Of a DNA stretch of 64,000 nucleotides, positions 31,076-44,147 are shown piece by piece. The notes under the pieces were generated by a model. It was given only the letters and a program-made list of their open reading frames with translations. It was not told where the DNA came from and ran no database searches. The translations under genes were made by a program, and so were the position numbers. This DNA comes from Eubacterium sp. (GTDB lineage: Bacteria > Bacillota > Clostridia > Lachnospirales > Lachnospiraceae), in NCBI GenBank assembly GCA_017965495.1, contig JAGCPW010000044.1, positions 59,859 to 123,858 of the forward strand, given 5' to 3'. Each line of letters opens with the position of its first letter. The stretch's first letter is position 1.

Positions 31076-31633
31076 ATGGTTTCAGCAGGAGATTTCAAGA
31101 ATGGTTTAACTATCGAATACGATGGTAACATTTATCAGATTATAGAATTTCAACATGTTAAGCCAGGTAAGGGAGCTGCATTCGTAAGAACTAAACTTAA
31201 AAACATCAAGACTGGTGGTATTACAGAAACATCATTCAGACCTACAGAGAAGTTTGAGAATGCACATATCGATAGAAAAGATATGCAATACCTTTACACA
31301 GACGGAGAACTATATCACTTCATGGATGGCGAGACATATGAGCAGATCGCAATTGAAGCAGACAAGGTTGGCGATACTCTTAAATTTATCAAAGAGAGTG
31401 AGACAGTAAAGATTTGTTCACACAACGGTGATGTATTTGCAATAGAGCCACCTATCACAGTGGAACTTACTATTACAGAAACAGAGCCAGGCATCAAAGG
31501 TAACACAGCTACCAATGCCACAAAGCCAGCTACAGTAGAAACAGGAGCTACAGTATACGTTCCATTGTTTGTAGAAGAAGGCGAGAAGATTGTTATTGAT
31601 ACACGTACGGGTGAATATTCTAAACGTGTTTAA
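31076..31633 (+). CDS. efp: Elongation factor P
   Basis: Relieves ribosome stalling at polyproline. The 185 residues have the three-domain OB/KOW layout, beginning [17 protein letters not shown]. The tip loop is [15 protein letters not shown], whose Lys at position 32 is the usual modification site. The C-terminal signature [17 protein letters not shown] is clear. The secreted proteins downstream contain Pro/Thr linkers with repeated Pro-Thr and a few longer proline-containing stretches. No terminator separates efp from the secreted gene 46 bases downstream. Confidence 0.97.
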
Positions 31634-31679: not shown

Positions 31680-32525
31680 ATGAAAGGATTCACAAAGAAA
31701 ATTGCTTCTGTAGTTTTAGCACTTACATTAGTGATCGGACTAGCTACATCAGCTTCAGCTGCAGCTTGGGACGGATACTTTGGTGCTAACGACGGATCAT
31801 TCTGGGAAGGCGCTACAGGTACAATGGCAGGAGTTTCAGCTAAAGGATTTACAGCTAGAATGACATCAGTTGGTTGGGGCGGTGTCTGGGGATGCCAGGT
31901 TAAGCAGCCAATCAAACTAGTTAAGGGCAAAGCTTACGCTCAGTCATATACTATCAAGTCTACAAAGGCTAACAAGTATATCTACGTTAAGATGTCAACA
32001 AACGAAAACATTGCACATGCTTACTGGGTAAAACTTCCTAAGGGAAAAACAGTTAAGGTAGAGCAAGTATTTAAGGCTGCAAATCCAGCTAACCAGATTA
32101 CATTCGGTCTAGGCGGAGACGCTGGTGACAGAGATGGTTCTGATGTAGACGCAGCTGCAAGATATGGTATCTTCGAGAAACAGTTTAAGATTAAACGTCA
32201 GCAGCTAGGTCAGCTTGACTGTGATGGAGATTTCTCATCAGTTACAGATATCACAGTATCTAACTACTCACTTGGTGCTGCACCTACAAAGATCAAATTC
32301 TCAGCTAAGGCTAAGGGTAAGAAGAAAGTTAAAGTTACTTTGAAAAAAGCAGCTGGAATCAAGACTTTCGAAATCAAAGTAGGAAAAGTTAAAAAGAAAA
32401 CTACTAAGACTAAGATCACAATCAAGGCTAAGAAGAAAGGTAAGCAGAAAGTTCAGGTTAGAGGTATCTCAGCTGACAAAGCTTACAAGACAAAATGGGC
32501 TACAAAGAAAGTTAAAGTTAAGTAA
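31680..32525 (+). CDS. Secreted basic protein with CBM-like region and Lys-rich C-terminal module
   Basis: 281 residues with a Sec signal peptide ending near ATSASAAAW (about residue 25). The mature N-terminal part (about 27-185) looks like a jelly-roll carbohydrate-binding region: aromatic motifs such as GWGGVWGC, alternating strands and a final IKRQQLGQLDCDGDFSS segment. The last 80 residues form a very lysine-rich beta module related to the fibronectin-III-like ends of the next six genes. No catalytic motif is visible and no sortase, SLH or LysM anchor. First of seven secreted genes; it may be read through from efp. The binding function is inferred. Confidence 0.6.
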   Translation: MKGFTKKIASVVLALTLVIGLATSASAAAWDGYFGANDGSFWEGATGTMAGVSAKGFTARMTSVGWGGVWGCQVKQPIKLVKGKAYAQSYTIKSTKANKYIYVKMSTNENIAHAYWVKLPKGKTVKVEQVFKAANPANQITFGLGGDAGDRDGSDVDAAARYGIFEKQFKIKRQQLGQLDCDGDFSSVTDITVSNYSLGAAPTKIKFSAKAKGKKKVKVTLKKAAGIKTFEIKVGKVKKKTTKTKITIKAKKKGKQKVQVRGISADKAYKTKWATKKVKVK

Positions 32526-32543
32526 AGAAAACTTTAAATAAAG

Positions 32544-32578
32544 AAGACGTGTTAGCAAATGCTAGCACGTCTTTTTTT
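32544..32578 (+). terminator. Intrinsic terminator
   Basis: Stem AAGACGTGTTAGC / GCTAGCACGTCTT (one G-T pair) around AAAT, followed by a T-tract, after the first secreted gene. Confidence 0.9.
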
Positions 32579-32703
32579 GTTGCTCATCTGCACTTTTATA
32601 TCACTATGTGGTGTTACATTTACACTATAGAAGGAGCGGATAATAGGTTTATTAGATTGGTAAAAAAATATAGACATTCTAAAAAACTAGCACTTTATTG
32701 TAA

Positions 32704-32732
32704 TTGATAGAGATTTTCTATCGTGATATAAT
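32704..32732 (+). promoter_or_regulatory. Promoter of the first GH128 gene with internal dyad
   Basis: TTGATA (32704-32709), 17-base spacer, perfect TATAAT (32727-32732). The interval holds the inverted repeat GATAGA-N4-TCTATC (32706 to about 32722), which overlaps the -35 element and could be an operator. Confidence 0.8.
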
Positions 32733-32774
32733 TTTAAAAGATGAGGGAGCGGAAATCATCGGAAAGGAACCGAT

Positions 32775-34727
32775 ATGAAAAAAGTTATTAAAAGTATTAG
32801 TGTTCTTGTTTTAAGTTTATCACTTGTATTTAGTGGTTTTGTTTTTGCTGGAAATGTAAAAGCAGACGAGATAAGTGAATGGAAAGCAAGTGCAATTAAA
32901 ACTCCTACAGAAGGAAACTTATTAGGAGCAGGTTACATAGACGTAGAGTTTGATAACTCTTTGGCTGGCTATACTTACGAAGTATTTCTCGATGGAAATC
33001 CTGTTTACTGGAAAGATGGAGATATCCTAAGACCTGAGCTAGACGAAGACGAAAGTCAGGGAACAAGAAAGACTTTTAAATCAAGCGATACACCAAAGAC
33101 AGAAGTATATACTACATCTGTTGCTAAACACGAAATTACAGTTAAAGCTACAAAAGATGAAGAGACTATAACATCCGATCCAGTTACTTTCTATGTTTCT
33201 AAGAAAGGATTGGCTATGGGTGATGACATGGGTAATAAAGTATCTCTAAAGAAACTAAACTGCTCATGGTATTACAACTGGAACGCATATGGATTCCACA
33301 ATTCAGTGGATGATGGTGTAGCACATATGCCAATGATTTGGGGCGGACCAGAAGAAGAAATTCAAAATCAAGTTAATGAATTAGAATATGATTCAAACTA
33401 TATCCTAGGTTTCAATGAGCCAGATATAGAAGGACAAGCTAATATGCCATTCTTTGAAGCGGTAGATATGTGGAAGCAGTACGTTTCTCCTATTAATAAG
33501 AGAAAAGTATCTCCAGCACCTGCATCACCAGGTGGAACTTCTAAGTGGCTAAAATCATTTGTAAATGGCGACACTTATTGTTGGTTACCAGACGGCTCGT
33601 GGGATTACTATAATATGTATTCAGATGATCCATCTATTATACCAATTGAAGTAGAAGGTGTTAGCGATTGTGATGCTGTATGCTTGCATAGTTACCAAAA
33701 CAGAATAGGTGCAGGCGGATTAATTCAAGCAGTTAAGAATCTATGGAGAGATTATAAAAAACCAGTTTGGGTTACTGAGATTGGACTATTTGGTTCAAAG
33801 AGTGACTCTACTGATATGAGTTATGAAAATGCTGAGAAGAGAGCAGAGATTCAAGCATTTATGGAAGAGGTTGTAACTGAGTTAGATAAACTTCCATATG
33901 TAGAGAGATATTGCTGGTTCTCATATGATGTTGAGAGCGCTAATGCGATAGATAACTTTGACGGTTCCGGTGGAACATCAATGTTTGAATATTGTTCAGG
34001 ACTATATACAGATCTTGGAAAAGCTTATTCAGAGATAGCTAATCCAGAAGGATACAATGCTAGCAAGATTTCTAGCAATGAAATGTTCAATTGGGATACT
34101 AGAGTTAAATTTGCAGCTACTTATAACAAGTCTAAAGATACAGCCGAGATTTCTTGGGATAAGGGAACACTACCTACTATGCCTAAGATGGACATTACTT
34201 TAGATGATGAACCAATTGAAATTGAAAATGGTGGAGAGATAGATGTATCTGCTTTAGATGAAGGTAAGCATGCTATTAAGTTTACACTTTACACTGAGGA
34301 TGATACTACAGTAATGGTTACAAAGACTAGAGGTTTCGTAATCGACAGAAAAGTGGAACCTACCACTGAGGCACCTACTCAGGCACCAACACAAGCTCCT
34401 ACAGTAGCGCCAGTTAAACCAACAGTTAAACCAACAGTTAAACCTGCTGTTGTTAAACCTGGCAAGACTACTATTAAGGGTAAAAACGTTAAGAAAAAAT
34501 CAGCTAAACTTTCTTGGAGTGCTGTCTCAGGTGCTAAGAAGTATAAGTTTAACTGGGCTATGAATAAAAAGTTCACAAAGAAGAGCAAGACAAAGATAGT
34601 TACTAAGACTAGCTACAAAGTTAAGAAACTTAAGAAAAAGAAAACATATTACTTTAGAGTAGCAGCAATTAATGATGCTGGTACAGGCCCTTGGTCTAAC
34701 ACTAAGAAGATCAAAATCAAAAAGTAA
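32775..34727 (+). CDS. Secreted GH128 (Asl1-like) endo-beta-1,3-glucanase with Lys-rich FN3 module
   Basis: 650 residues. Signal peptide to about residue 31, an Ig-like N-terminal region (about 36-140, from ASAIKTPTEGNLLGAGYIDV), then the GH128 barrel from about 150. The barrel has LNCSWYYNWN, acid/base Glu215 in LGFNEPD and nucleophile Glu335 in KPVWVTEIG, with ERYCWFSYD before the final strand. A further beta region (435-530) leads into a Pro/Thr linker rich in PTQAPT and KPTVKP repeats. A fibronectin-III-like domain with about one-third lysine ends the protein. GH128 enzymes cleave beta-1,3-glucans such as laminarin or curdlan; specificity here is inferred. It has its own strong promoter. 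Confidence 0.82.
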   Translation: MKKVIKSISVLVLSLSLVFSGFVFAGNVKADEISEWKASAIKTPTEGNLLGAGYIDVEFDNSLAGYTYEVFLDGNPVYWKDGDILRPELDEDESQGTRKTFKSSDTPKTEVYTTSVAKHEITVKATKDEETITSDPVTFYVSKKGLAMGDDMGNKVSLKKLNCSWYYNWNAYGFHNSVDDGVAHMPMIWGGPEEEIQNQVNELEYDSNYILGFNEPDIEGQANMPFFEAVDMWKQYVSPINKRKVSPAPASPGGTSKWLKSFVNGDTYCWLPDGSWDYYNMYSDDPSIIPIEVEGVSDCDAVCLHSYQNRIGAGGLIQAVKNLWRDYKKPVWVTEIGLFGSKSDSTDMSYENAEKRAEIQAFMEEVVTELDKLPYVERYCWFSYDVESANAIDNFDGSGGTSMFEYCSGLYTDLGKAYSEIANPEGYNASKISSNEMFNWDTRVKFAATYNKSKDTAEISWDKGTLPTMPKMDITLDDEPIEIENGGEIDVSALDEGKHAIKFTLYTEDDTTVMVTKTRGFVIDRKVEPTTEAPTQAPTQAPTVAPVKPTVKPTVKPAVVKPGKTTIKGKNVKKKSAKLSWSAVSGAKKYKFNWAMNKKFTKKSKTKIVTKTSYKVKKLKKKKTYYFRVAAINDAGTGPWSNTKKIKIKK

Positions 34728-34739
34728 TTGAATTACAAT

Positions 34740-34780
34740 TGTGATAACCAAGTTGTATGTGATAACGTTTATGCTATAAT
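34740..34780 (+). promoter_or_regulatory. Promoter with direct repeats before the third secreted gene
   Basis: TTGTAT (34753-34758), 16-base spacer, TATAAT (34775-34780) preceded by TGC (extended -10). The nonamer TGTGATAAC occurs at 34740-34748 and again at 34758-34766, 18 bases apart on the same face, the second copy lying inside the spacer. This resembles a tandem operator. Confidence 0.65.
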
Positions 34781-34842
34781 ATTAATAGGTTAGATGAACG
34801 TTTAAATATAAGAATAATTATTTTTATTAAGGAGGTTACAAA

Positions 34843-36000
34843 ATGAAAAAATTATTCAGCAAAACATTAGCAGTTGCTATCTCATTAGCAATGGTAGTTG
34901 CACTAGGTGCAGGTATCTACTTTACAAAAGATACTCAGGCTGCTTCTTATTTAGGATCAGCAGGTTGGGCATTTGAACAAGGTGGATGCTACTCAAGTGC
35001 ACAAGAAACTGAATGGGGAAATGTCGGTTACATTAGTAGTGTAGCAATGGCAACTAATGGCGAGACAATCAACTCATGGGAAAGAGGAATGTACAATACT
35101 CAGACTCAGACAGCTTCAGCTGATACTGGCGCAGCTATAACTATTGAAAACAATGGTTGGGATGCTCAGTGGAAAGAAGTTACAGGATATCCTACTGTAA
35201 GAATTAACCCTTGGTCTATTCAGGCTATGGCTAAGTTCAATGGTATGAACTACGACCACAATTATAAAGTTACTTTCAAAGCTAAAGCTACAAAGAAAAA
35301 ATATTGCTACGTTAACTTCAACACAGTTGTAGACGGACATGAAATGTCACCATACGACAATGTAGAAGGCGCACTTACAGGCGACGAGCAAGTAATCGTA
35401 CTTGGAACTCAGGAGAAAGAGTTTACATACACATTCCCTAACTATGTTGGTGGACATGAACTTACTGTAGACTTTATGCTTGGTTCATTCACACAGGATG
35501 GAGACGGAAATGTATATGATTATGCAGGAAATGCACTTCCTCAGTGTGAGGGTGAAGAGACTCAGTGGAAGAATGGAACAGTTACATTTAGTGATGTTAA
35601 GGTTGAAGACCTAGATCCTGATAAGCCAACTGATCCTACAGAACCACCTCTATACACAACTACAGCTCCAGCTCCAGCTACTACTGTAGCTCCACAGCCT
35701 ACACAGGCTCCTACAGTTAAGCCAGCTCCAGCAGTTAAAACATTAGCTAAGGTTACTGGTGTTAAGGTTAAGAGTGTTAAGAAGAAAACTATTAAAGTAT
35801 CTTGGAAGAAGACAGCTAACGCTAAGTCATACCAGATTAAGGTAGGAAACAAGACTTACAAGGCTACAAAGACTTCTAAGAAGATTAAGAACAAGAAGTT
35901 CAAAAAAGGTAAGAAAGTTAAAGTTAAAGTTAGAGCTATGGCAGCTGGATATAAGACGGGTGCATGGTCAAAGACAGTTAAGAAAAAACTTACTAAATAA
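34843..36000 (+). CDS. Secreted carbohydrate-binding protein with Lys-rich FN3 module
   Basis: 385 residues. Signal peptide to about residue 33 (ending DTQAAS), then one large beta-sandwich region (about 35-265) whose NYKVTFKAKATKKKYCYVNF and final VTFSDVKVEDL strands resemble CBM4/9-type carbohydrate-binding modules. A Pro/Thr linker (PTDPTEPPLYTTTAPAP) follows, and a fibronectin-III-like C-terminal domain is extremely rich in Lys. No glycosidase motif is seen. It has its own promoter and a TAAGGAGG ribosome site. Probably the non-enzymatic glucan-binding partner of the neighbouring GH128 enzymes; ligand unknown. Confidence 0.65.
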   Translation: MKKLFSKTLAVAISLAMVVALGAGIYFTKDTQAASYLGSAGWAFEQGGCYSSAQETEWGNVGYISSVAMATNGETINSWERGMYNTQTQTASADTGAAITIENNGWDAQWKEVTGYPTVRINPWSIQAMAKFNGMNYDHNYKVTFKAKATKKKYCYVNFNTVVDGHEMSPYDNVEGALTGDEQVIVLGTQEKEFTYTFPNYVGGHELTVDFMLGSFTQDGDGNVYDYAGNALPQCEGEETQWKNGTVTFSDVKVEDLDPDKPTDPTEPPLYTTTAPAPATTVAPQPTQAPTVKPAPAVKTLAKVTGVKVKSVKKKTIKVSWKKTANAKSYQIKVGNKTYKATKTSKKIKNKKFKKGKKVKVKVRAMAAGYKTGAWSKTVKKKLTK

Positions 36001-36012
36001 TTAAGTTTATCT

Positions 36013-36044
36013 AAGAGCCCGCTGTTTAAGACAACGGGCTCTTT
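36013..36044 (+). terminator. Weak intrinsic terminator/attenuator
   Basis: Stem AAGAGCCCG / CGGGCTCTT with a 13-base loop but only a three-T tail, 30 bases before the next start. Partial read-through into the next gene is likely. Confidence 0.6.
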
Positions 36045-36075
36045 AAGAAATAACTTTGATTAGGAGGATAGAAAG

Positions 36076-37623
36076 ATGAAAAAGAATATTTTCAAAAAAC
36101 TTATAGTTAGTGTTCTATCTCTATCTCTTATGTTCAGTTTTTCAGCTCCAGTAGCTGCAGCTTCACACGCTGCCAATGGTTCAAACATTATGCCAGCTAA
36201 TGGCAAATGGGTTTCAGATTGTGTTCGTGATGATTTGAATTATGATCCAAGTGGAAAGGGCCCATGTACTGAATGGGAGATTGCTCTACTAAAAGAGATG
36301 GATACCAATCTTAAGAAAGAGTTAGGTAGTTACTACACTAATATTAAAACATGGAACCCATATACTCTAGAGCAGAACTATGCTACAGCTATGTCAAACT
36401 TGACAGACGCACATAACGCAGGTAAAGTTTCAGATGCTGAATATGAACGTCTACAGACAGTAACTGGCTGGGACGGAATTATGGGATGGCAGAGTTTTAC
36501 ACAAGGTAGAATGATTGACCCTAACACATCAAAAGAAGCAACTATGTACGTTGCCAACACAGGTTGGGACGGAGAATATGCTGCACAGACTTATGGTGGA
36601 GAGAAAAAATTAGTTGCTGACAATCCTTGGGGATTAACAATTACAATGGATAAGATTCCAGTTGAGTATACTCGTTACTATACAATGGAATTTGACATTG
36701 CATCAGATCTACAGGGTAAGGATAATGAAACAGGTCTACAAGAAAGATCAGATAAATATTGTATCGTTAAAGCTTTTGACTATCAGTCAAGAGGAGAACC
36801 ATCAGCTGCATTTGAATCATTCCAGGTAAATGGAAAAGAAGCTGCAAAAGATGGTAAATTTAAAATTGCTAAAACTCCTAAGGGAGAAAATCTAGTAAAA
36901 ACACATATCAAAGCCACATTTAAGATTCCAGATTCTAAGAATGAGTGGAGTGGTGGACACGATGCAGGTATGTTCACAAAGATGGGAATTAAATTTGCAT
37001 TGGGCGCATTCTCAAAATCTCATGAAGATGAAGTGGAAAAAGGCGAAGCTCCTCAGTGGGAAGAAGTTGCTAATAAAGGCTATATATATGTAACTGATTT
37101 GAAAGTTATCGCAGGCACACAGTATGCTGTAAGATATTACGATGGATCAGTACAGAAAGATTTAAGATATGTTAACGAATATGATCAGGCTAAGAATATT
37201 GCTCTAAAGAAGAAGGGCTATACACAGACTGGTTACATCAATATGGCTACAGGTTCTAAGTTTAGTTTCGGAACTCTAATTGAGCAAGATACTAACTTAA
37301 AAGCTACTTGGACTAAGACACAGAAACCTAAAAAGGCATCATTTACTGCGAAGAGTAAGAAGAAAAAGAAAATCACAGTAAAATTCAAGAAGAATGCTAA
37401 CGCTAGAGGTTATCAAGTAAAATACTCACACAACAAGAAGTTCAAGAAGAAATCTAAGTATAAAACAAAGACTAAGAACACATCAAAGACATCAACTTAT
37501 ACAATCAAAGGACTTAAGTCATCTAAGATAGCATATGTTAAAGCTAGAGCTTACAACCTAGATTCTTGTGGAAACAAGATTTATGGTAAGTGGAGCAAGA
37601 GAAAGAGCGTTTACGTTAAATAA
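36076..37623 (+). CDS. Secreted protein with CBM-like, InlB-type repeat and Lys-rich FN3 domains (paralogue A)
   Basis: 515 residues. Signal peptide ends near PVAAASHA. An extra segment (about 45-145) precedes a beta-sandwich region with TGWDGEYAAQTYGG, LVADNPWGLTITM and RYYTMEFDIASDL. Then comes a repeat like the Listeria-Bacteroides/InlB B-repeat (VRYYDGSV to NLKATWTK), and a Lys-rich fibronectin-III-like end. It is paralogous to the gene at 37803: the same three domains with many identical stretches. There is no catalytic signature. A good TTAGGAGG ribosome site precedes the ATG. A surface or secreted glycan-binding role is inferred. Confidence 0.62.
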   Translation: MKKNIFKKLIVSVLSLSLMFSFSAPVAAASHAANGSNIMPANGKWVSDCVRDDLNYDPSGKGPCTEWEIALLKEMDTNLKKELGSYYTNIKTWNPYTLEQNYATAMSNLTDAHNAGKVSDAEYERLQTVTGWDGIMGWQSFTQGRMIDPNTSKEATMYVANTGWDGEYAAQTYGGEKKLVADNPWGLTITMDKIPVEYTRYYTMEFDIASDLQGKDNETGLQERSDKYCIVKAFDYQSRGEPSAAFESFQVNGKEAAKDGKFKIAKTPKGENLVKTHIKATFKIPDSKNEWSGGHDAGMFTKMGIKFALGAFSKSHEDEVEKGEAPQWEEVANKGYIYVTDLKVIAGTQYAVRYYDGSVQKDLRYVNEYDQAKNIALKKKGYTQTGYINMATGSKFSFGTLIEQDTNLKATWTKTQKPKKASFTAKSKKKKKITVKFKKNANARGYQVKYSHNKKFKKKSKYKTKTKNTSKTSTYTIKGLKSSKIAYVKARAYNLDSCGNKIYGKWSKRKSVYVK

Positions 37624-37639
37624 TTTTTCATTTTTAAAT

Positions 37640-37681
37640 GCACAGAGAGGTGACCAATCATCACCTTTCTGTGCTATTTTT
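37640..37681 (+). terminator. Intrinsic terminator
   Basis: 14-bp stem GCACAGAGAGGTGA / TCACCTTTCTGTGC (one G-T pair) with a 7-base loop, followed by TATTTTT. Confidence 0.88.
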
Positions 37682-37762
37682 ATGTTAGTATAATAATGTA
37701 AAAAATATTAGTAAATATCCTTACATTTTGTTATAATTATAAGGAAGTTTGACCGGATTAGA

Positions 37763-37784
37763 TTTAGATGAAAAAACATCTAAA
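37763..37784 (+). promoter_or_regulatory. Leader hairpin just before the ribosome site
   Basis: TTTAGATG-A6-CATCTAAA forms a perfect 8-bp hairpin that ends six bases before the AGGAG of the next gene. It could influence translation or mRNA stability; no known riboswitch fits. Confidence 0.5.
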
Positions 37785-37802
37785 ACTTAAAGGAGTATAG
37801 TT

Positions 37803-39200
37803 GTGAAGAAGGTTATTTTGAAAAGAAACTTAATGAAAAAACTAGTAGTTAGCATACTTTCTCTATCTATGGTATTTGGACTATCTGGTTCAGTTTTTGG
37901 TGCATCACATGCACCTAACGGAGCTAATGTTATTCCAAGCACTGCTAAGTGGACTAGTTTTTCTATTTGTACAAGAGAAGACGGCGGTTCTTGGGAAGAC
38001 TCATTAAAACAGGTTTATAGAACCAATTCTGATGGTAGTTACTTTCTAGATGAGAATGGAAATAAAGTTACCTTTGTAAAAGGTGTTGATTACGCCACAG
38101 AAGGTTGGATTAACGGATCAGAAGGATTGAAAAATGATTCTAGTGAAGTTACTTTCTACTGCAAGGCTACTGGATGGGACGGTGAATATGGACAGATGAC
38201 CAGAGGAGGCCCATCTATTCTAGTTGCTGATAACCCATGGGGAATGACACTAACTATGACAGGCATTCCAGTTGAGTTTGGTCGCTACTATACAATGGAA
38301 TTTGATATGCTTGGTGATCTTAATGCAGTTAAATATGACGCTCTTACTGGCAAGACCACATATGAACCAGCAGAAAAACACATTTTGCTTAAGGCATATG
38401 ATTACAATTCAAATGGCGAACCATCTGCGGCATTTGAAAATGTTAAACAAGATGATAAAGAAATCTCTAAAGATGGATTTATAGAAGTTAAGAAAAAAGA
38501 TGCAGGTTACTCTCACATAGTTGCTAAATTTAAAATCCCTGAGTCACCAGATGACTGGGGTGGTGGAAAACACAAAGGTTCTTTCACTAATGTGGGTATC
38601 AAGTTCGCACTTGGAGCAAACTTAATCTCATATAAAAATGAAGGATCGATGAGAGGAAACATTCATATCAAGAATATGAAGATGTTGGCTGGAAAACAGT
38701 ACACAGTTAAGTATTATGACGGTGCTGTACACAAGGCTACAAAGTTCGTAAATGACGAAGAATCTGCTAATAGTGTTAAACTCTCAAGAGCATATAACAC
38801 ATTGGCTGGATATACAGATATGGCTACTGGCAAGAAGTTCAACTTCTCAACTATCTTAACTAAAGATATGAACCTAAGAGCTATTTGGACTAAGACTCCA
38901 GCTCCTGGTAAAGCATCACTCAAAGTTAAGAGTAAAAAGAAGAAGAGAGAAACAGTAACATTCGGAGCTAACAAGAATGTAAGGGGATACCAAGTAATGT
39001 ATTCCTACAGTAGCAAATTTAAGAAGAAATCAAAATTCAAAACAAAGACTAAGAATACAACGAATACCTCCACATACACTATTAAGTCTCTTAAGTCGGG
39101 CGCAGTAGTTTATGTAAAGACAAGAGCTTTCAATCTTGACTCAGCAGGTAACAAAGTATTTGGTGCATGGAGCTCACGTAAAGTGGCTTACGTAAGATAA
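37803..39200 (+). CDS. Secreted protein with CBM-like, InlB-type repeat and Lys-rich FN3 domains (paralogue B)
   Basis: 465 residues, starting at GTG 37803 with AGGAG seven bases upstream; an internal ATG ten codons on would still leave a complete signal peptide. Cleavage is expected after SVFGAS. The beta-sandwich region has TGWDGEYGQMTRGG, LVADNPWGMTLTM and RYYTMEFDMLGDL. The InlB-type repeat (VKYYDGAV to NLRAIWTK) and Lys-rich fibronectin-III-like end follow, matching paralogue A throughout. It lacks the extra N-terminal segment of A. The two genes probably arose by tandem duplication and then diverged in ligand surface. Confidence 0.62.
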   Translation: MKKVILKRNLMKKLVVSILSLSMVFGLSGSVFGASHAPNGANVIPSTAKWTSFSICTREDGGSWEDSLKQVYRTNSDGSYFLDENGNKVTFVKGVDYATEGWINGSEGLKNDSSEVTFYCKATGWDGEYGQMTRGGPSILVADNPWGMTLTMTGIPVEFGRYYTMEFDMLGDLNAVKYDALTGKTTYEPAEKHILLKAYDYNSNGEPSAAFENVKQDDKEISKDGFIEVKKKDAGYSHIVAKFKIPESPDDWGGGKHKGSFTNVGIKFALGANLISYKNEGSMRGNIHIKNMKMLAGKQYTVKYYDGAVHKATKFVNDEESANSVKLSRAYNTLAGYTDMATGKKFNFSTILTKDMNLRAIWTKTPAPGKASLKVKSKKKKRETVTFGANKNVRGYQVMYSYSSKFKKKSKFKTKTKNTTNTSTYTIKSLKSGAVVYVKTRAFNLDSAGNKVFGAWSSRKVAYVR

Positions 39201-39213
39201 AAAAGGAAATAGT

Positions 39214-39252
39214 GGTGTGGGGAGACTTAGATATTTTCCCCACGCCTTTTTT
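39214..39252 (+). terminator. Intrinsic terminator
   Basis: Stem GGTGTGGGG / CCCCACGCC with a 15-base loop and six T. Confidence 0.85.
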
Positions 39253-39285
39253 AATAAAAAATAAATGTAAAGGAACGGAAGAAAA

Positions 39286-40806
39286 ATGAAGAAAGTTATA
39301 ACAATTATTCTATCAATTGCATTATTTGTATCAGGAATGACAGTTACTCCAGTAGCGGCTAAAGATACTATGACTCCTGACGAATGGAAAACTCAAGCTA
39401 TTACAGCTCCTAAAGCTAATAGTTTGATTGGTGCTGGTCACATTGATCTTAAATGGTGGGGTAATCTTGAAAATGCTAGTAAGTATACTGCATATGTAGA
39501 TTCTAAAGCTGTTAAGACATTGAACGCAGGTGACCCAGCAATGATGAGTGTAGATTTTTATACTGTAAAAGTTAGTGCTCACACAGCCTATGTGGTAGCA
39601 GAACAGACGGACGGCACAAAAGTTCAGACAGATACAGTAAAATTCTACGTAACTAAAAAAGGTATCTGCGTTAATACAAAAGATATGGGTGTGAAAGTAG
39701 ACCCAGCAGATATGAACCTTGGTTGGTACTACAACTGGGATAATAAATCATTTGAAGAGACTGGATTCTCGAATACTAAATTCTATGGAATGGATTATGT
39801 ACCTCAGTTCTGGGGAGACCCAAGAGATCCATATCCAGATTGCTTCGATAGATTTAAAGCACAGGGATATAAATATGTATTAGGTTTCAACGAGCCAGAT
39901 TTGGTTTGGGAATCTAACTTCAAGACAGACGTTGCTATGAGAAGATGGATGAAAGACATTATGCCAAACAAGGGCAATATGCTTCTTGGTTCACCAGCAG
40001 TTTCTGTATTCCCACAGTGGTCAGATTGGTGGAAACAGTATTGGAATATTCTTCCAGGTTCTGCTAAATCAGCTACTAACTTTATAGCAGTACATAACTA
40101 CAATAAATACTACAATGGTTCACAGACAGCGCTTGATTATCTAGAGAAGATAGATGAGTGTTATAACAAATATAGAAAACCTATTTGGATTACAGAGTTC
40201 GCTATCTGGAAGTTCGATAAGAACGACAAAGCAGGATGCGCTAAGACTCAGGAATTCATGAGAATAGTTCTTAAAGGTTTGAATGAGAGAAGTTATGTTG
40301 AGAGATATGCTTGGTTCTCACCAGACTATAACTCAAAAGATGCAAGTTCATCTAGTCTATTTGACTATGGAACAGGAAATCTTACAACTATAGGTAAGGT
40401 TTATGCTCAGATTGGAAATCCAGCAGGTTATCCAGCTAAGACATATGGTGTACCTTCTGGTTCTAATGTAAATACTTCAGTAGCATCTTGTATTGCATCA
40501 CAAAAGACTACTCTATACGGACTAACAAAGAAAAAGAAAGCATTCAAATATTCAATCAAAGCAATGGATGGTGCTGTTAAGTATCAGATCCAGTACTCAC
40601 TAAGCAAGAAGTTTAGTAAGAAGAAAAAATACAAGACTAAGATTAAGACAGTAGGAGCTACTACTTCAGACGAGAAGAACGGTACTATCAAGAAGCTTAA
40701 GAAAAAGAAAAGATACTATGTACGCGTAAGAGCGATCAAACAATTCTTAGGAAAGAATTACTACTGTGCATGGAGTGGTAGACAGTCAGTTAAGACTAAA
40801 AAATAA
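39286..40806 (+). CDS. Secreted GH128 (Asl1-like) beta-1,3-glucanase, short form
   Basis: 506 residues. Signal peptide to about residue 25 (VTPVAAKD), a short Ig-like region (about 30-125) similar to that of the other two glucanases, and a GH128 barrel with NLGWYYNWD. Acid/base Glu203 sits in LGFNEPD, nucleophile Glu304 in KPIWITEFAIW, and ERYAWFSPDYN follows. It goes directly, without a Pro/Thr linker, into a Lys-rich fibronectin-III-like end (KYQIQYSLSKKFSKKKKY). It is separated from the next glucanase by 61 bases without a terminator, so the two are probably cotranscribed. Confidence 0.82.
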   Translation: MKKVITIILSIALFVSGMTVTPVAAKDTMTPDEWKTQAITAPKANSLIGAGHIDLKWWGNLENASKYTAYVDSKAVKTLNAGDPAMMSVDFYTVKVSAHTAYVVAEQTDGTKVQTDTVKFYVTKKGICVNTKDMGVKVDPADMNLGWYYNWDNKSFEETGFSNTKFYGMDYVPQFWGDPRDPYPDCFDRFKAQGYKYVLGFNEPDLVWESNFKTDVAMRRWMKDIMPNKGNMLLGSPAVSVFPQWSDWWKQYWNILPGSAKSATNFIAVHNYNKYYNGSQTALDYLEKIDECYNKYRKPIWITEFAIWKFDKNDKAGCAKTQEFMRIVLKGLNERSYVERYAWFSPDYNSKDASSSSLFDYGTGNLTTIGKVYAQIGNPAGYPAKTYGVPSGSNVNTSVASCIASQKTTLYGLTKKKKAFKYSIKAMDGAVKYQIQYSLSKKFSKKKKYKTKIKTVGATTSDEKNGTIKKLKKKKRYYVRVRAIKQFLGKNYYCAWSGRQSVKTKK

Positions 40807-40867
40807 TTAGTTGTTGTTTATTGATATTCTGTGAGGAAGAATATTTGTAAAGGATAAAGGTGACGAT

Positions 40868-42901
40868 ATGAAAATCACTAAAAGAATTTTAACAATTGTA
40901 TTATCATTAGCTCTTGTAGTGGGCGGACTATACCTAGTTGCGCCAAAGGATACAAGTGCGGCTACAGATTTTGCAATTACAGCGCCAAAGACAGATTCCA
41001 TTAAGGCGGCTGGTCCAATTGATATCACTTGGGAAGATGCAAACAGTATGAAACAGGTTGCAAGCTATGATGTCTTTGTCGATGGCAAGTTGGAAAAGAA
41101 TACTACAGCTACCAAATATGAGTTCTATACTACTAAAGTTAACTTCCATAAAGTTTGGATTAGAGCAAACTTTAAAGATGGATCAAACCATTACACTAGA
41201 ACAATAAGATTTGGTGTTACTAAGAAGGGTCTTGGTACAGAAACTGGAATGGGCCAGAACAACATCAAGACTAAAGAAATGGGTCTCGGCTGGTATTATA
41301 ACTGGGGTAGAGGCGCAATTAATACTGACAAGTATAAAGATTTAGAGTATGTCCCAATGGTTTGGGGTGATACTAATGCCAATACTATTAAGAGTAAAAT
41401 GGAAACAGCTATCAACCAAGGAAGTAAACATATGCTTGGCTTTAACGAGCCAGATATGGACTGGAGCGGTGGCGGTTGTAATATGGAAACTAGTACAGCT
41501 ATAAATCTATGGCCTAACTTTACTCAGTATATGGACAGAATCAGAGTTGGTTCTCCAGCGTATGCTATTTGGGGAAGCGGCAGTAAGATGGTTCAGTTCA
41601 TGGCAGGAGTAGAAAACAATGTAGATTTCGTTTGCCTACACTGTTATCCAGCTGACTGGAACGGTGGAAAATCAATGGCAGATTGGTTCATTCAAAGCGT
41701 AGTAAAAGATGCTTACAACAGATATCATAAACCAATTTGGATTACAGAATATTCTACTTCAGGAAACGGAATTACTCAGGAGGGAACAGCATCATTTATT
41801 GAGAATTTATTCCCTGCATTGGATGAGTTAGAGTATGTGGAGAGACATGCGTGGTTCTCGTTCAACTCAGCATCATTTGGCGGTGGATTATATAATTATT
41901 CAACAGGCGAACTTTCAAAGTCTGGACAGATGTTTGCAGATAAGGGTAATCCTGAAACAGACTATGTAGCTGGTCCAGAAGTTAACCCAAGAGATCCATA
42001 TGAGACTACTACACCTAGACCAACTACACCACCTACCACAACACTTAAACCATACTCAGACATTGAGGCTAACATAGATGTACCTCAAGATGAGTGGGGT
42101 AAATTTGGTAATTATGGTGTATACACTGGTACTTGGGAAGGATCAAATACAGCTAAGGCTGGAGTAGATCCTAAAGACCCATCACATATCGTAGTTAAGA
42201 GAACAAATGATACATATACAAGCGCTTGGTTAACTCAGGTTAAACTTGAATTACCTGGCCTTGATCCAAATGAGGAATATACATATGAGTGGCCTATCGT
42301 ATCTAAAGTTAAACAGGGAACTCTTGTTTCTTCAAATGGAGAAGATGGCGACAACAACAGAACATATTTGAATGGTCAAGATCAGAAGTTAACAGGTAAA
42401 ACAGAAGTATCTAGCGAGGGTGTTCCACAAATAGTAGTAGGACTAGGATGGATTAATAGTACTAACCAGATTAGTTTCTATATGCCAATAGTTAAGGATA
42501 AATATGGAAACAGAGTTTATCCTAAGGAATTACCAACTACTGTAGCACCTACCACAGCGCCTGTTACAAAGAAACCAACTGTTAAACCTACAGCTAAGCC
42601 TACTGCCAAGATTAAAAAGCCTGGCAAAGCTAAGATTAAATCAGCTAAGAATAAGAAGAAGAGAAAGATTAAATTATCTCTTAAGAAGATGAAAGGCGTT
42701 ACAGGATATCACATCAGATATTCAGACAGCAAGAAGTTTGACGGTTATTGGGAGAAGTATACTAAGAAAGTTAAAGTTACTCTAAAGAAGCTTGATAAGG
42801 GTACTAAGTATTACATCAAAGCTAGAGCTTACAAGAAAGTAAATAAAACTATTGTTTACGGTAAGTGGAGTAAGAAAAAGAAAGTTAAAGTTAAGAAATA
42901 A
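40868..42901 (+). CDS. Secreted GH128 (Asl1-like) beta-1,3-glucanase with CBM-like and Lys-rich FN3 modules
   Basis: 677 residues, the largest of the set. Signal peptide to about residue 33 (KDTSAAT), an Ig-like region (35-125) and a GH128 barrel with GLGWYYNWG. Acid/base Glu194 sits in LGFNEPD, nucleophile Glu294 in KPIWITEYST, and ERHAWFSFN follows. A Thr/Pro linker leads to a beta-sandwich region (about 393-555; YTSAWLTQVKLELPGLD, IVVGLGWINSTNQISFYMP) that looks like a carbohydrate-binding module. A second linker and the Lys-rich fibronectin-III-like end complete it. The domain order (enzyme, binding module, basic module) combines parts found separately in its neighbours. Confidence 0.82.
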   Translation: MKITKRILTIVLSLALVVGGLYLVAPKDTSAATDFAITAPKTDSIKAAGPIDITWEDANSMKQVASYDVFVDGKLEKNTTATKYEFYTTKVNFHKVWIRANFKDGSNHYTRTIRFGVTKKGLGTETGMGQNNIKTKEMGLGWYYNWGRGAINTDKYKDLEYVPMVWGDTNANTIKSKMETAINQGSKHMLGFNEPDMDWSGGGCNMETSTAINLWPNFTQYMDRIRVGSPAYAIWGSGSKMVQFMAGVENNVDFVCLHCYPADWNGGKSMADWFIQSVVKDAYNRYHKPIWITEYSTSGNGITQEGTASFIENLFPALDELEYVERHAWFSFNSASFGGGLYNYSTGELSKSGQMFADKGNPETDYVAGPEVNPRDPYETTTPRPTTPPTTTLKPYSDIEANIDVPQDEWGKFGNYGVYTGTWEGSNTAKAGVDPKDPSHIVVKRTNDTYTSAWLTQVKLELPGLDPNEEYTYEWPIVSKVKQGTLVSSNGEDGDNNRTYLNGQDQKLTGKTEVSSEGVPQIVVGLGWINSTNQISFYMPIVKDKYGNRVYPKELPTTVAPTTAPVTKKPTVKPTAKPTAKIKKPGKAKIKSAKNKKKRKIKLSLKKMKGVTGYHIRYSDSKKFDGYWEKYTKKVKVTLKKLDKGTKYYIKARAYKKVNKTIVYGKWSKKKKVKVKK

Positions 42902-42991: not shown

Positions 42992-43005
42992 TATAGGGAA
43001 TTAAA

Positions 43006-43168
43006 CATAGTAGAGGCTGCGCTAGATAAGAGTAAGTTATAGGATGCACCTAAGCAGTTGAGTATAACTGAAAGGAGATAGCGCCGAAGGATAACTGGTA
43101 GGAAGGTTGTCCTGGGCATAAGATAAATAATCTTATGACTGTCATCAAAAAGATGGAGAGCTACTTAT
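43006..43168 (+). ncRNA. Lysine riboswitch (L box)
   Basis: Matches the lysine-sensing leader: AGAGGCTGCG and AAGAGTA near the 5' side, CTGAAAGGAGATAGCGCCGA in the core, CTGGGC, the GACTGTCATC segment and GATGGAGAGCTACT at the 3' side. The closing stem pairs AGTAG (about 43009-43013) with CTACT (43161-43165). It lies directly upstream of dapA, a lysine biosynthesis gene. A terminator follows, and GAGCT (43158-43162) can pair with AGCTC (43186-43190) of that terminator as an antiterminator. Lysine binding should therefore favour termination. Confidence 0.92.
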
Positions 43169-43180
43169 TAATTTTTGAAA

Positions 43181-43262: not shown

Positions 43263-44147
43263 ATGTCTATATTTAAAGGAGCGGGTGTAGCTATTATTAC
43301 ACCATTCAAAGAAAACGGAGATGTTAACTTTGAAGAATTTGGAAAACTAATCGAGATGCAGATTGAAGGTGGAACAGATGCCATTATCGTATGCGGAACT
43401 ACAGGTGAAGCATCTACTATGAACGATGACGAGCATCTAGCTACTATCAAGTATTGTATTGATAAAGTAGCTGGTAGAATCCCAGTAGTAGCTGGTACAG
43501 GTTCAAACAGCACTAAAGAAGCAGTTAACCTATCAAAACAGGCTGCTGATCTTGGTGCAGATGGACTTTTGTGTGTAACACCTTACTACAATAAGGCTAC
43601 ACAGGATGGTTTATATCAGTACTACAAGGCTATTTCAGATGCTGTAGATATTCCAATCATTATGTACAACGTACCAGGACGTACAAGTACTAATATCCAG
43701 CCTGAGACTGCAGTTAGAATAGCAAAAGAAGTAGAAAACGTAGTTGCTATTAAAGAAGCATCAGGAAACATTGCACAGGTTGCAAAACTTGCAGCACTAG
43801 CTGATGGTTGTCTTGATATTTACTCAGGAAATGATGACCAGGTTCTTCCTCTTATGTCACTTGGCGGAATTGGTGTTATTTCTGTATGGAGTAATGTGGC
43901 ACCTAAACAGGTTCACGATATGGCTACAGCATATCTAAACGGTGATGTGGAGACAGCAAGAAAGCTTCAACTAGAAGCAATCGATTTGATTGGCGCGCTT
44001 TTCTGCGAAGTAAATCCTATCCCAGTTAAAGCTGGTGTAAATATGCTAGGATACAACGCAGGATCACTTCGTCCACCTCTAACAGAGATGACAGATGCCG
44101 GCAAAGAACGCTTAAGAAAAGCAATGGAAGACTACGGCATTCTATAG
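43263..44147 (+). CDS. dapA: 4-hydroxy-tetrahydrodipicolinate synthase
   Basis: First committed enzyme of the diaminopimelate/lysine branch, condensing pyruvate with aspartate semialdehyde. The 294-residue TIM barrel has GTTGEASTM, TPYYNKATQDGL, YNVPGRTSTN with the catalytic Tyr, and the Schiff-base Lys in VVAIKEASGN. A TTAGGAGG site precedes the ATG. Lysine riboswitch control upstream matches its role in both lysine and cell-wall diaminopimelate supply. Confidence 0.97.
   Translation: MSIFKGAGVAIITPFKENGDVNFEEFGKLIEMQIEGGTDAIIVCGTTGEASTMNDDEHLATIKYCIDKVAGRIPVVAGTGSNSTKEAVNLSKQAADLGADGLLCVTPYYNKATQDGLYQYYKAISDAVDIPIIMYNVPGRTSTNIQPETAVRIAKEVENVVAIKEASGNIAQVAKLAALADGCLDIYSGNDDQVLPLMSLGGIGVISVWSNVAPKQVHDMATAYLNGDVETARKLQLEAIDLIGALFCEVNPIPVKAGVNMLGYNAGSLRPPLTEMTDAGKERLRKAMEDYGIL

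Follow-up and report, generated by a model that had tools for sequence, protein, structure and literature searches.

Probable Beta-1,3-Glucan Utilization by the Array Between efp and dapA

Beta-1,3-glucan occurs as a polymer in yeast and fungal walls and in those of callose. Among bacteria with a described glucan locus, Blautia producta is a member of the Lachnospiraceae, as is the Eubacterium sp. considered here. Its mixed-linkage glucan locus features a GH16 enzyme with four CBM4 modules, an ATP-binding cassette (ABC) importer, and GH94 (PMC10318527). Gram-positive GH161 loci with ABC parts are also known, as are GH94-GH161 tandems (PMC6484121). The window, which is the whole stretch of 64,000 nucleotides analyzed from contig JAGCPW010000044.1, carries an array of seven + strand open reading frames (ORFs) at 31680-42901, with efp on the 5′ side, dapA on the 3′ side, and no other ORF in the interval. 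This array is very probably the extracellular half of a genus-wide Lachnospiraceae beta-1,3-glucan utilization system, whose importer and phosphorylases are encoded elsewhere. The sequence-only reading of this DNA had described seven consecutive secreted-protein genes between efp and dapA, and the ORF coordinates agree with it, the signal peptides being judged by eye. The ORFs are as follows.

ORF1, 31680..32525, + strand: signal peptide (by eye), predicted CBM4-type module at about residues 28-200, lysine-rich fibronectin type III (fn3) tail
ORF2 (GHa), 32775..34727, + strand: N-terminal region common to the GH128 ORFs, GH128 domain, extra module at about 430-530, fn3 tail
ORF3, 34843..36000, + strand: CBM4-type module as suggested by profile comparison, fn3 tail
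ORF4, 36076..37623, + strand: N-terminal insert of variable length, predicted CBM4-type module within about 134-349, InlB-repeat-like piece (by eye), fn3 tail
ORF5, 37803..39200, + strand: ORF4 paralog, 51% identity across 383 amino acids
ORF6 (GHb), 39286..40806, + strand: GH128 domain and fn3 tail
ORF7 (GHc), 40868..42901, + strand: GH128 domain, extra module at about 385-560, fn3 tail

In the proposed system, the secreted GH128 enzymes would cut beta-1,3-glucan outside the cell, and the free-standing CBM4-type proteins (ORFs 1, 3, 4, and 5) would bind the glucan and retain it close to the cell. With their strong positive charge, the fn3 tails would probably fix all seven proteins non-covalently on the anionic cell wall. 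Oligosaccharides would be imported by the ABC importer encoded elsewhere, and intracellular GH161 and GH94-type phosphorylases would break them down to glucose 1-phosphate. The families, catalytic motifs, synteny, and importer and phosphorylase genes are assigned from sequence and the CBM4 fold from structure prediction; the substrate, the surface retention by the tails, the endo-action, and the division of labor are what we infer.

GH128 Enzymes

Pfam PF11790 (Glyco_hydro_cc, GH128) matches exactly three of the seven proteins, ORF2, ORF6, and ORF7, at 134, 147, and 153 bits against a cut-off of 21 (E 6.9e-39, 7.6e-43, and 1.8e-44). These are the same three that had been called GH128 enzymes from the motifs WYYNW, FNEPD, and W(V/I)TE, all of which are present in each. 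Among solved structures, 6uaq, which we take to be AmGH128_I, is closest to each of them (E 5.8e-20 for ORF2, 3.4e-23 for ORF6, and 2.5e-31 for ORF7), and in the alignments their GH128 motifs share columns with those of 6uaq. In the ORF7 alignment, chain 6ufl has a Gln at the Glu of W-x-TE (W-L-T-Q), which marks the nucleophile column. The roles of the catalytic residues are taken from passages of PMC10956234, which place AmGH128_I in subgroup I and 6uax and 6uav in subgroup II. The motifs [FY]NEPD, H-x-Y, and W-x-TE are all present in 3/3 of the window GH128 proteins and in 80/80 ORFs of loci L041-L068, the 80 being those found by a GH128 profile at E 1e-10 or better. Both the sequence match and the two catalytic Glu residues with H-x-Y thus place the three proteins in GH128. 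The extra module of ORF7 has no match to CBM4 profiles, and among the ORFs of L041-L068 it is matched only in genome G012 (L052), at 90%.

CBM4-Type Proteins

In two predicted structures, the heads of ORF1 and ORF4 adopt a CBM4-type beta-sandwich. The Thermotoga laminarinase CBM 1gui is the top CBM row by Z for both models, though tied; the structure matches of ORF4 are dominated by its fn3 tail, and its head assignment comes from few rows. None of the four proteins passes the Pfam CBM_4_9 cut-off of 25.9 bits, which counts against CBM4 membership by Pfam, and the best score in the array is that of ORF3 (20.4 bits, E 7e-4). When ORFs 1, 3, and 4/5 were compared as full-length profiles, part of the score came from signal peptides and tails, and the result was not accepted as proof of a common head. 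The comparison was redone with both removed, and GH128 and tail profiles served as controls. The tail-less ORF3 profile matches the ORF4/5 heads at 99.1% and the ORF1 heads at 96.7%, vs. 0.1% for each head with GH128 and at most 5.9% for heads with tails. Fold prediction and profiles support naming ORFs 1, 3, 4, and 5 as CBM4-type, that is, as predicted carbohydrate-binding beta-sandwich modules. This supports the earlier description of four beta-sandwich binders without a catalytic motif and gives them a family type.

Outside the genus, among 249 other genomes of the family, the ORF4/5-type profile matches four, in all four cases within GH16-domain proteins. The ORF1-type profile matches nine; of the eight scanned (G214 was left out), five have the match in GH16 proteins (G029, G098, G121, G151, and G175) and three in GH9 proteins. 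The ORF3-type profile has weak matches in 18 outside genomes. A third ORF4-like protein of the own genome, with 405 amino acids and a lysine-rich tail, lies directly 3′ of a ruvB-like gene as judged by eye (L198:6899-8116, G000:C22).

Conservation and Phylogeny

The array is real, sits at one chromosomal place, and is conserved in one little-known Lachnospiraceae genus of the mammalian gut. The synteny sample consisted of stretches from 22 other genus genomes plus the window, 23 in all, chosen around GH128 hits, so that the presence of GH128 in them is by choice. ORF3-type and ORF4/5-type genes are each found in 23/23 genomes, GHa and GHb in 22/23 each, GHc in 17/23, and the ORF1 type in 19/23, with profiles whose rows came from these genomes themselves, so that matches are expected by construction; in G004, G009, and G017, the ORF3-type row was picked by position, without a listed blastp match to ORF3. 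With leave-one-genome-out profiles, which still contain near species, these counts are unchanged: the ORF4/5 type is recovered in all 23 genomes with E of 1e-52 or below and the ORF1 type in 19/23 with E of 2e-52 or below. The ORF3 type is likewise recovered in all 23, with E no higher than 5e-47 in 21 of them and about 5e-19 in G009 and G017. Several of the missing genes would lie where a contig or stretch ends (G004, G008, G015, G017, and G019). G020 is without GHa inside a contig, and in G009 and G021 other genes occupy the expected place of the ORF1 type. The flanking dapA is present in 21/23 stretches and efp in 17/23. A tail-less GH128 (GHd) stands just upstream of dapA in 13 genomes, four of which (G002, G006, G007, and G008) are without GHc. 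The array is also conserved in genus genomes of 1.1-1.6 Mb, and larger relatives carry other genes within the efp-dapA interval. Titles of the records closest to the array mention the gut of reindeer, sheep, and goat, and labels such as RUG, Lapin, and MGBC are taken to stand for rumen, rabbit, and mouse.

A tree of 125 GH128 domains was computed with 200 bootstrap trees, its rows being labeled by best BLAST match and GHd by its length and lack of a tail. In 100% of bootstrap trees, a single branch separates each of GHa (22), GHb (22), and GHd (13) from all other rows, and in the tree the GHa group has support of 100/99 and the GHb group of 100/100. Because GHa and GHb are single groups, they look as old as the genus. 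GHc is not one group (four changes), and its members are intermixed with those of another GH128 cluster, which larger genomes carry. This second cluster comprises three genes tree-related to GHc (L062, L063, and L064 in G002, G006, and G007) and sits between a glycerol-kinase-like gene and an oxidoreductase-like gene pair, both named by eye.

PF11790 has a match in 20/250 family genomes, the own genome included, and four of the 249 others have strong matches (E 1e-37 or better) in frames of 1358-1698 amino acids, so that the rarity of GH128 in other genera is a statement about this sample of 249. GH128 also occurs outside the array in further Lachnospiraceae records (e.g., L100, L102-L104, L106-L108, L110-L112, and L116). 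In 57 GH128 loci (L096-L152, part of which belong to the genus itself), CBM4-type ORFs beside GH128 were represented only by a weak match inside a 2169-amino-acid ORF (L118).

Uptake and Breakdown Genes Elsewhere in the Genome

No transporter family was matched by Pfam among the seven array proteins, and enzymes and ABC importer do not share one cluster as in a single-locus Gram-positive polysaccharide utilization locus. Contig C13 of the own genome (L162:2569-12347 and L157:331-11188, G000:C13), however, encodes a 1035-amino-acid substrate-binding protein (SBP), three Pfam permeases, and a 553-amino-acid lipoprotein-like ORF without a family. An ORF1 paralog on the same contig scores 26.5 bits with CBM_4_9, above the cut-off. 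Two GH16 proteins with signal peptides (by eye) are present as well, and the one compared with solved structures has laminarinase 3azx as its best match (E 4.7e-38). The C13 GH161 matches the solved 9qqk over its full length (query residues 8-1057 of 1059, E 1.9e-245). Laminaribiose phosphorylase (LBP) is recognized by the match of the G001 copy to 6ggy (E 0), and the LBP of the own genome, 93% identical to that copy, lies in two pieces at the ends of contigs C13 and C23. The own genome also has a GH81 C-terminal domain, in a tail-bearing protein. Across the genus, GH16 is found in 23/23 genomes and GH161 and LBP in 21/23 each.

A system without an ABC importer, as the sequence-only reading had proposed, is contradicted by the SBP and permease genes beside GH16 and GH161 on C13, and the reading of an absent importer was rejected. 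Judged by these genes, the system is split rather than importer-less. As side observations, a DUF5696 protein and an NHL/Yip1-domain protein are placed among the permease genes of C13, and G012, a genus member of 91% completeness, retains the GH128 array but has no match to GH161 or LBP.

The same genes bear on what the array is for. Some relatives of the ORF1 head sit in GH9 proteins, the genus comes from plant-eating animals according to record titles, and the GH16 of B. producta, with its four CBM4 modules, is used on mixed-linkage glucan (PMC10318527); these points speak for mixed-linkage beta-1,3/1,4-glucan (lichenan, cereal glucan), as in that species, as the true target. Such a target is nevertheless unlikely, as characterized GH161 acts on beta-1,3-gluco-oligosaccharides and GH94 LBP on laminaribiose (PMC6484121), and as the GH81 domain of the own genome counts against it. 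Secreted GH128, the GH81 protein, and glucan binders would presumably attack fungal walls too, and the array could thus be directed at living fungi or yeasts, for competition or lysis rather than feeding. However, phosphorylases for beta-1,3-gluco-oligosaccharides in 21/23 genomes point to nutrition, and no chitinase or toxin family was matched by Pfam among the seven proteins, which leaves this role very improbable. Conservation throughout the genus, including the genomes of 1.1-1.6 Mb noted above, resembles that of a core function such as the trimming of beta-1,3-glucan made by the bacterium itself. There is little chance of this, since an importer and phosphorylases of this type serve the use of glucan from outside the cell. 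Feeding on external beta-1,3-glucan remains the preferred reading.

The Lysine-Rich fn3 Tail

The tails of ORFs 1, 3, and 4/5 have profiles that match one another at 96-99%, and the ORF4/5 tail profile matches the best stretch in the tails of all other five ORFs, with E from 2.4e-5 (ORF3) to 6e-19 (ORF7) in a search of the seven sequences. Net charge is +24 to +34 across 81-106 residues. The tail has the fibronectin type III fold in the ORF1 and ORF4 models. The lysine-rich fn3-like end attributed to all seven proteins is thus upheld by the profiles that link them, though Pfam fn3 is above cut-off only in ORF2 (E 1.1e-8) and the ORF5 tail is less lysine-rich (21%).

The tail is a secretome-wide module of the own genome, carried by many proteins of unrelated function, because it occurs on varied proteins outside the array. 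A search of this genome with ORF4 gave 26 matches, six in the array (ORFs 2, 4, 5, 6, and 7) and 20 elsewhere; the latter are a lower bound on tails, as the search did not list those of ORF1 and ORF3. All 20 fall in the tail part of ORF4, and 19 of the 20 ORFs end lysine-rich, the exception being L173 (C80:14801), where the match is near the ORF start and hence no tail. The Pfam scan covered 18 of the 20 places (L167 and L173 were left out) and found among them a subtilase, GH25, two tyrosine phosphatases, CotH, leucine-rich repeats, a metallo-beta-lactamase fold, one GH16 protein, and one GH81 protein. Beyond the array, at least 19 proteins of this genome (G000) bear the tail, e.g., L067:6659-9517, L164, L169, L174, and L177.

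The tail as a sign of one joint machine was rejected, given its genome-wide spread. The claim of a dedicated extracellular beta-1,3-glucan system therefore stands as the likeliest use by families, motifs, and fold, and the shared tail is no argument for dedication. The generality of the tail, together with the other genes that larger relatives hold in the interval, would also fit a hotspot that gathers tailed secreted genes without a common purpose. This is barely credible, however, as gene order is kept across the genus, GHa, GHb, and GHd are each one tree group, and GH128 is rare in the sampled other genera of the family.

For the beta-1,3-glucan system, the tail is of interest as a probable means of retention. 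LPXTG-like, TGD, and lipobox motifs are absent from the seven array proteins, and the tail-less ORF1 paralog on C13 ends, by eye, in a TGD, hydrophobic, RR-type anchor. This difference between tailed and tail-less proteins suggests that the tail may take the place of an anchor. No paper linking lysine-rich or positively charged fn3 tails to Lachnospiraceae or teichoic acid was found among open-licence papers, nor any description of a role for the tail.

In ORF3, the tail is 77-95% identical between the window and six close relatives, vs. 34-79% for the head, and with G015 the values are 94 and 35%. The ORF3 heads diverge strongly among close relatives with the tail kept, as if heads had been swapped (window 34843-36000; L055:15592-16728; L044:12721-13893). 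This pattern is not general, because ORF5 (head 80-92%, tail 81-85%) and ORF7 compared with G016 (head 68%, tail 66%) show no contrast. The lysine-rich composition itself may slow change in the tail.

A further possibility, which is tentative and rather doubtful as a whole, is that the lysine-rich fn3 tail holds a whole secretome on the wall without covalent bonds, as a type of module not yet described. In this genus, the multimodular GH16-CBM4 glucanase known from other Lachnospiraceae would have been split into CBM4 proteins with tails and GH128 enzymes, each encoded separately, and some of the binding heads would be exchanged between species with the tails staying fixed. If true, the array would correspond, in a Gram-positive, to the Sus surface patch, with charge as the force that assembles it on the wall. 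This provides a testable idea of how Gram-positives might retain many surface enzymes without sortase-type signals.

Genes and Signals Around the Array

The flanking genes, named by eye from sequence, and two candidate signals are as follows.

efp, 31076-31633
dapA, 43263-44147, with a lysine riboswitch upstream at 43003-43171
Promoter-like site before ORF2, 32704..32732, + strand: 11/12 matches with TG, weak
Terminator-like stem-loop in the ORF4/ORF5 gap, 37640..37674, + strand: 14 pairs followed by a T-rich run, weak

The intergenic gaps from ORF1 to ORF7 measure 249, 115, 75, 179, 85, and 61 nucleotides. Both signals are regarded as weak because the scan totals are near or below the shuffled level, with nine terminator sites vs. 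6.0 (sd 2.6) in shuffled sequence and 27 promoter sites, fewer than the 40.1 of the shuffles. NCBIfam gave just two sub-threshold matches to the array proteins, both in ORF6.

Comparison With Known Systems

The array probably functions like a Gram-positive glucan utilization system with separate binding proteins, as judged from GH128 and the CBM4 fold. A description of the array itself was not found in open-licence papers, and the earlier reading, made without searches, also knew of none; the array is nonetheless no isolated case, being kept across its genus. It predicts what an uncultured gut genus feeds on and offers a candidate growth substrate for isolation. It would also make GH128 a principal enzyme family, not an accessory one, in a Gram-positive gut lineage.

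SusC/D-type polysaccharide utilization loci have surface glycan-binding proteins, but the array is not a member of this class, as neither SusC nor SusD is matched above the Pfam cut-off in the seven proteins (a sub-threshold SusE match on ORF5 reaches 15 vs. 25.2 bits). The B. producta locus shares CBM4 modules, an ABC importer, and a phosphorylase with the proposed system. It differs in that its CBM4 modules are fused to GH16 within a single locus, whereas the array has separate CBM4-type proteins, GH128 enzymes, and an importer that is not adjacent (PMC10318527). The C13 locus resembles the known GH161 loci in its ABC parts, GH16, and GH161, with LBP nearby in relatives, and the portion of PMC6484121 that treats those loci names no GH128/CBM4 array. 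The predicted fold of the ORF1 and ORF4 heads is shared with the CBM4 of Thermotoga maritima Lam16A (1gui), which is a module of an enzyme (PMC5725463), whereas in the array the CBM4-type protein stands alone with its own tail. ORFs 2, 6, and 7 have the same catalytic domain and motifs as the GH128 beta-1,3-glucanases 6uaq and CBM6E (8j3x). CBM6E is described with its CBM6 in the same chain, whereas the array brings two to four GH128 paralogs together, the three of the window each with a cationic fn3 tail.
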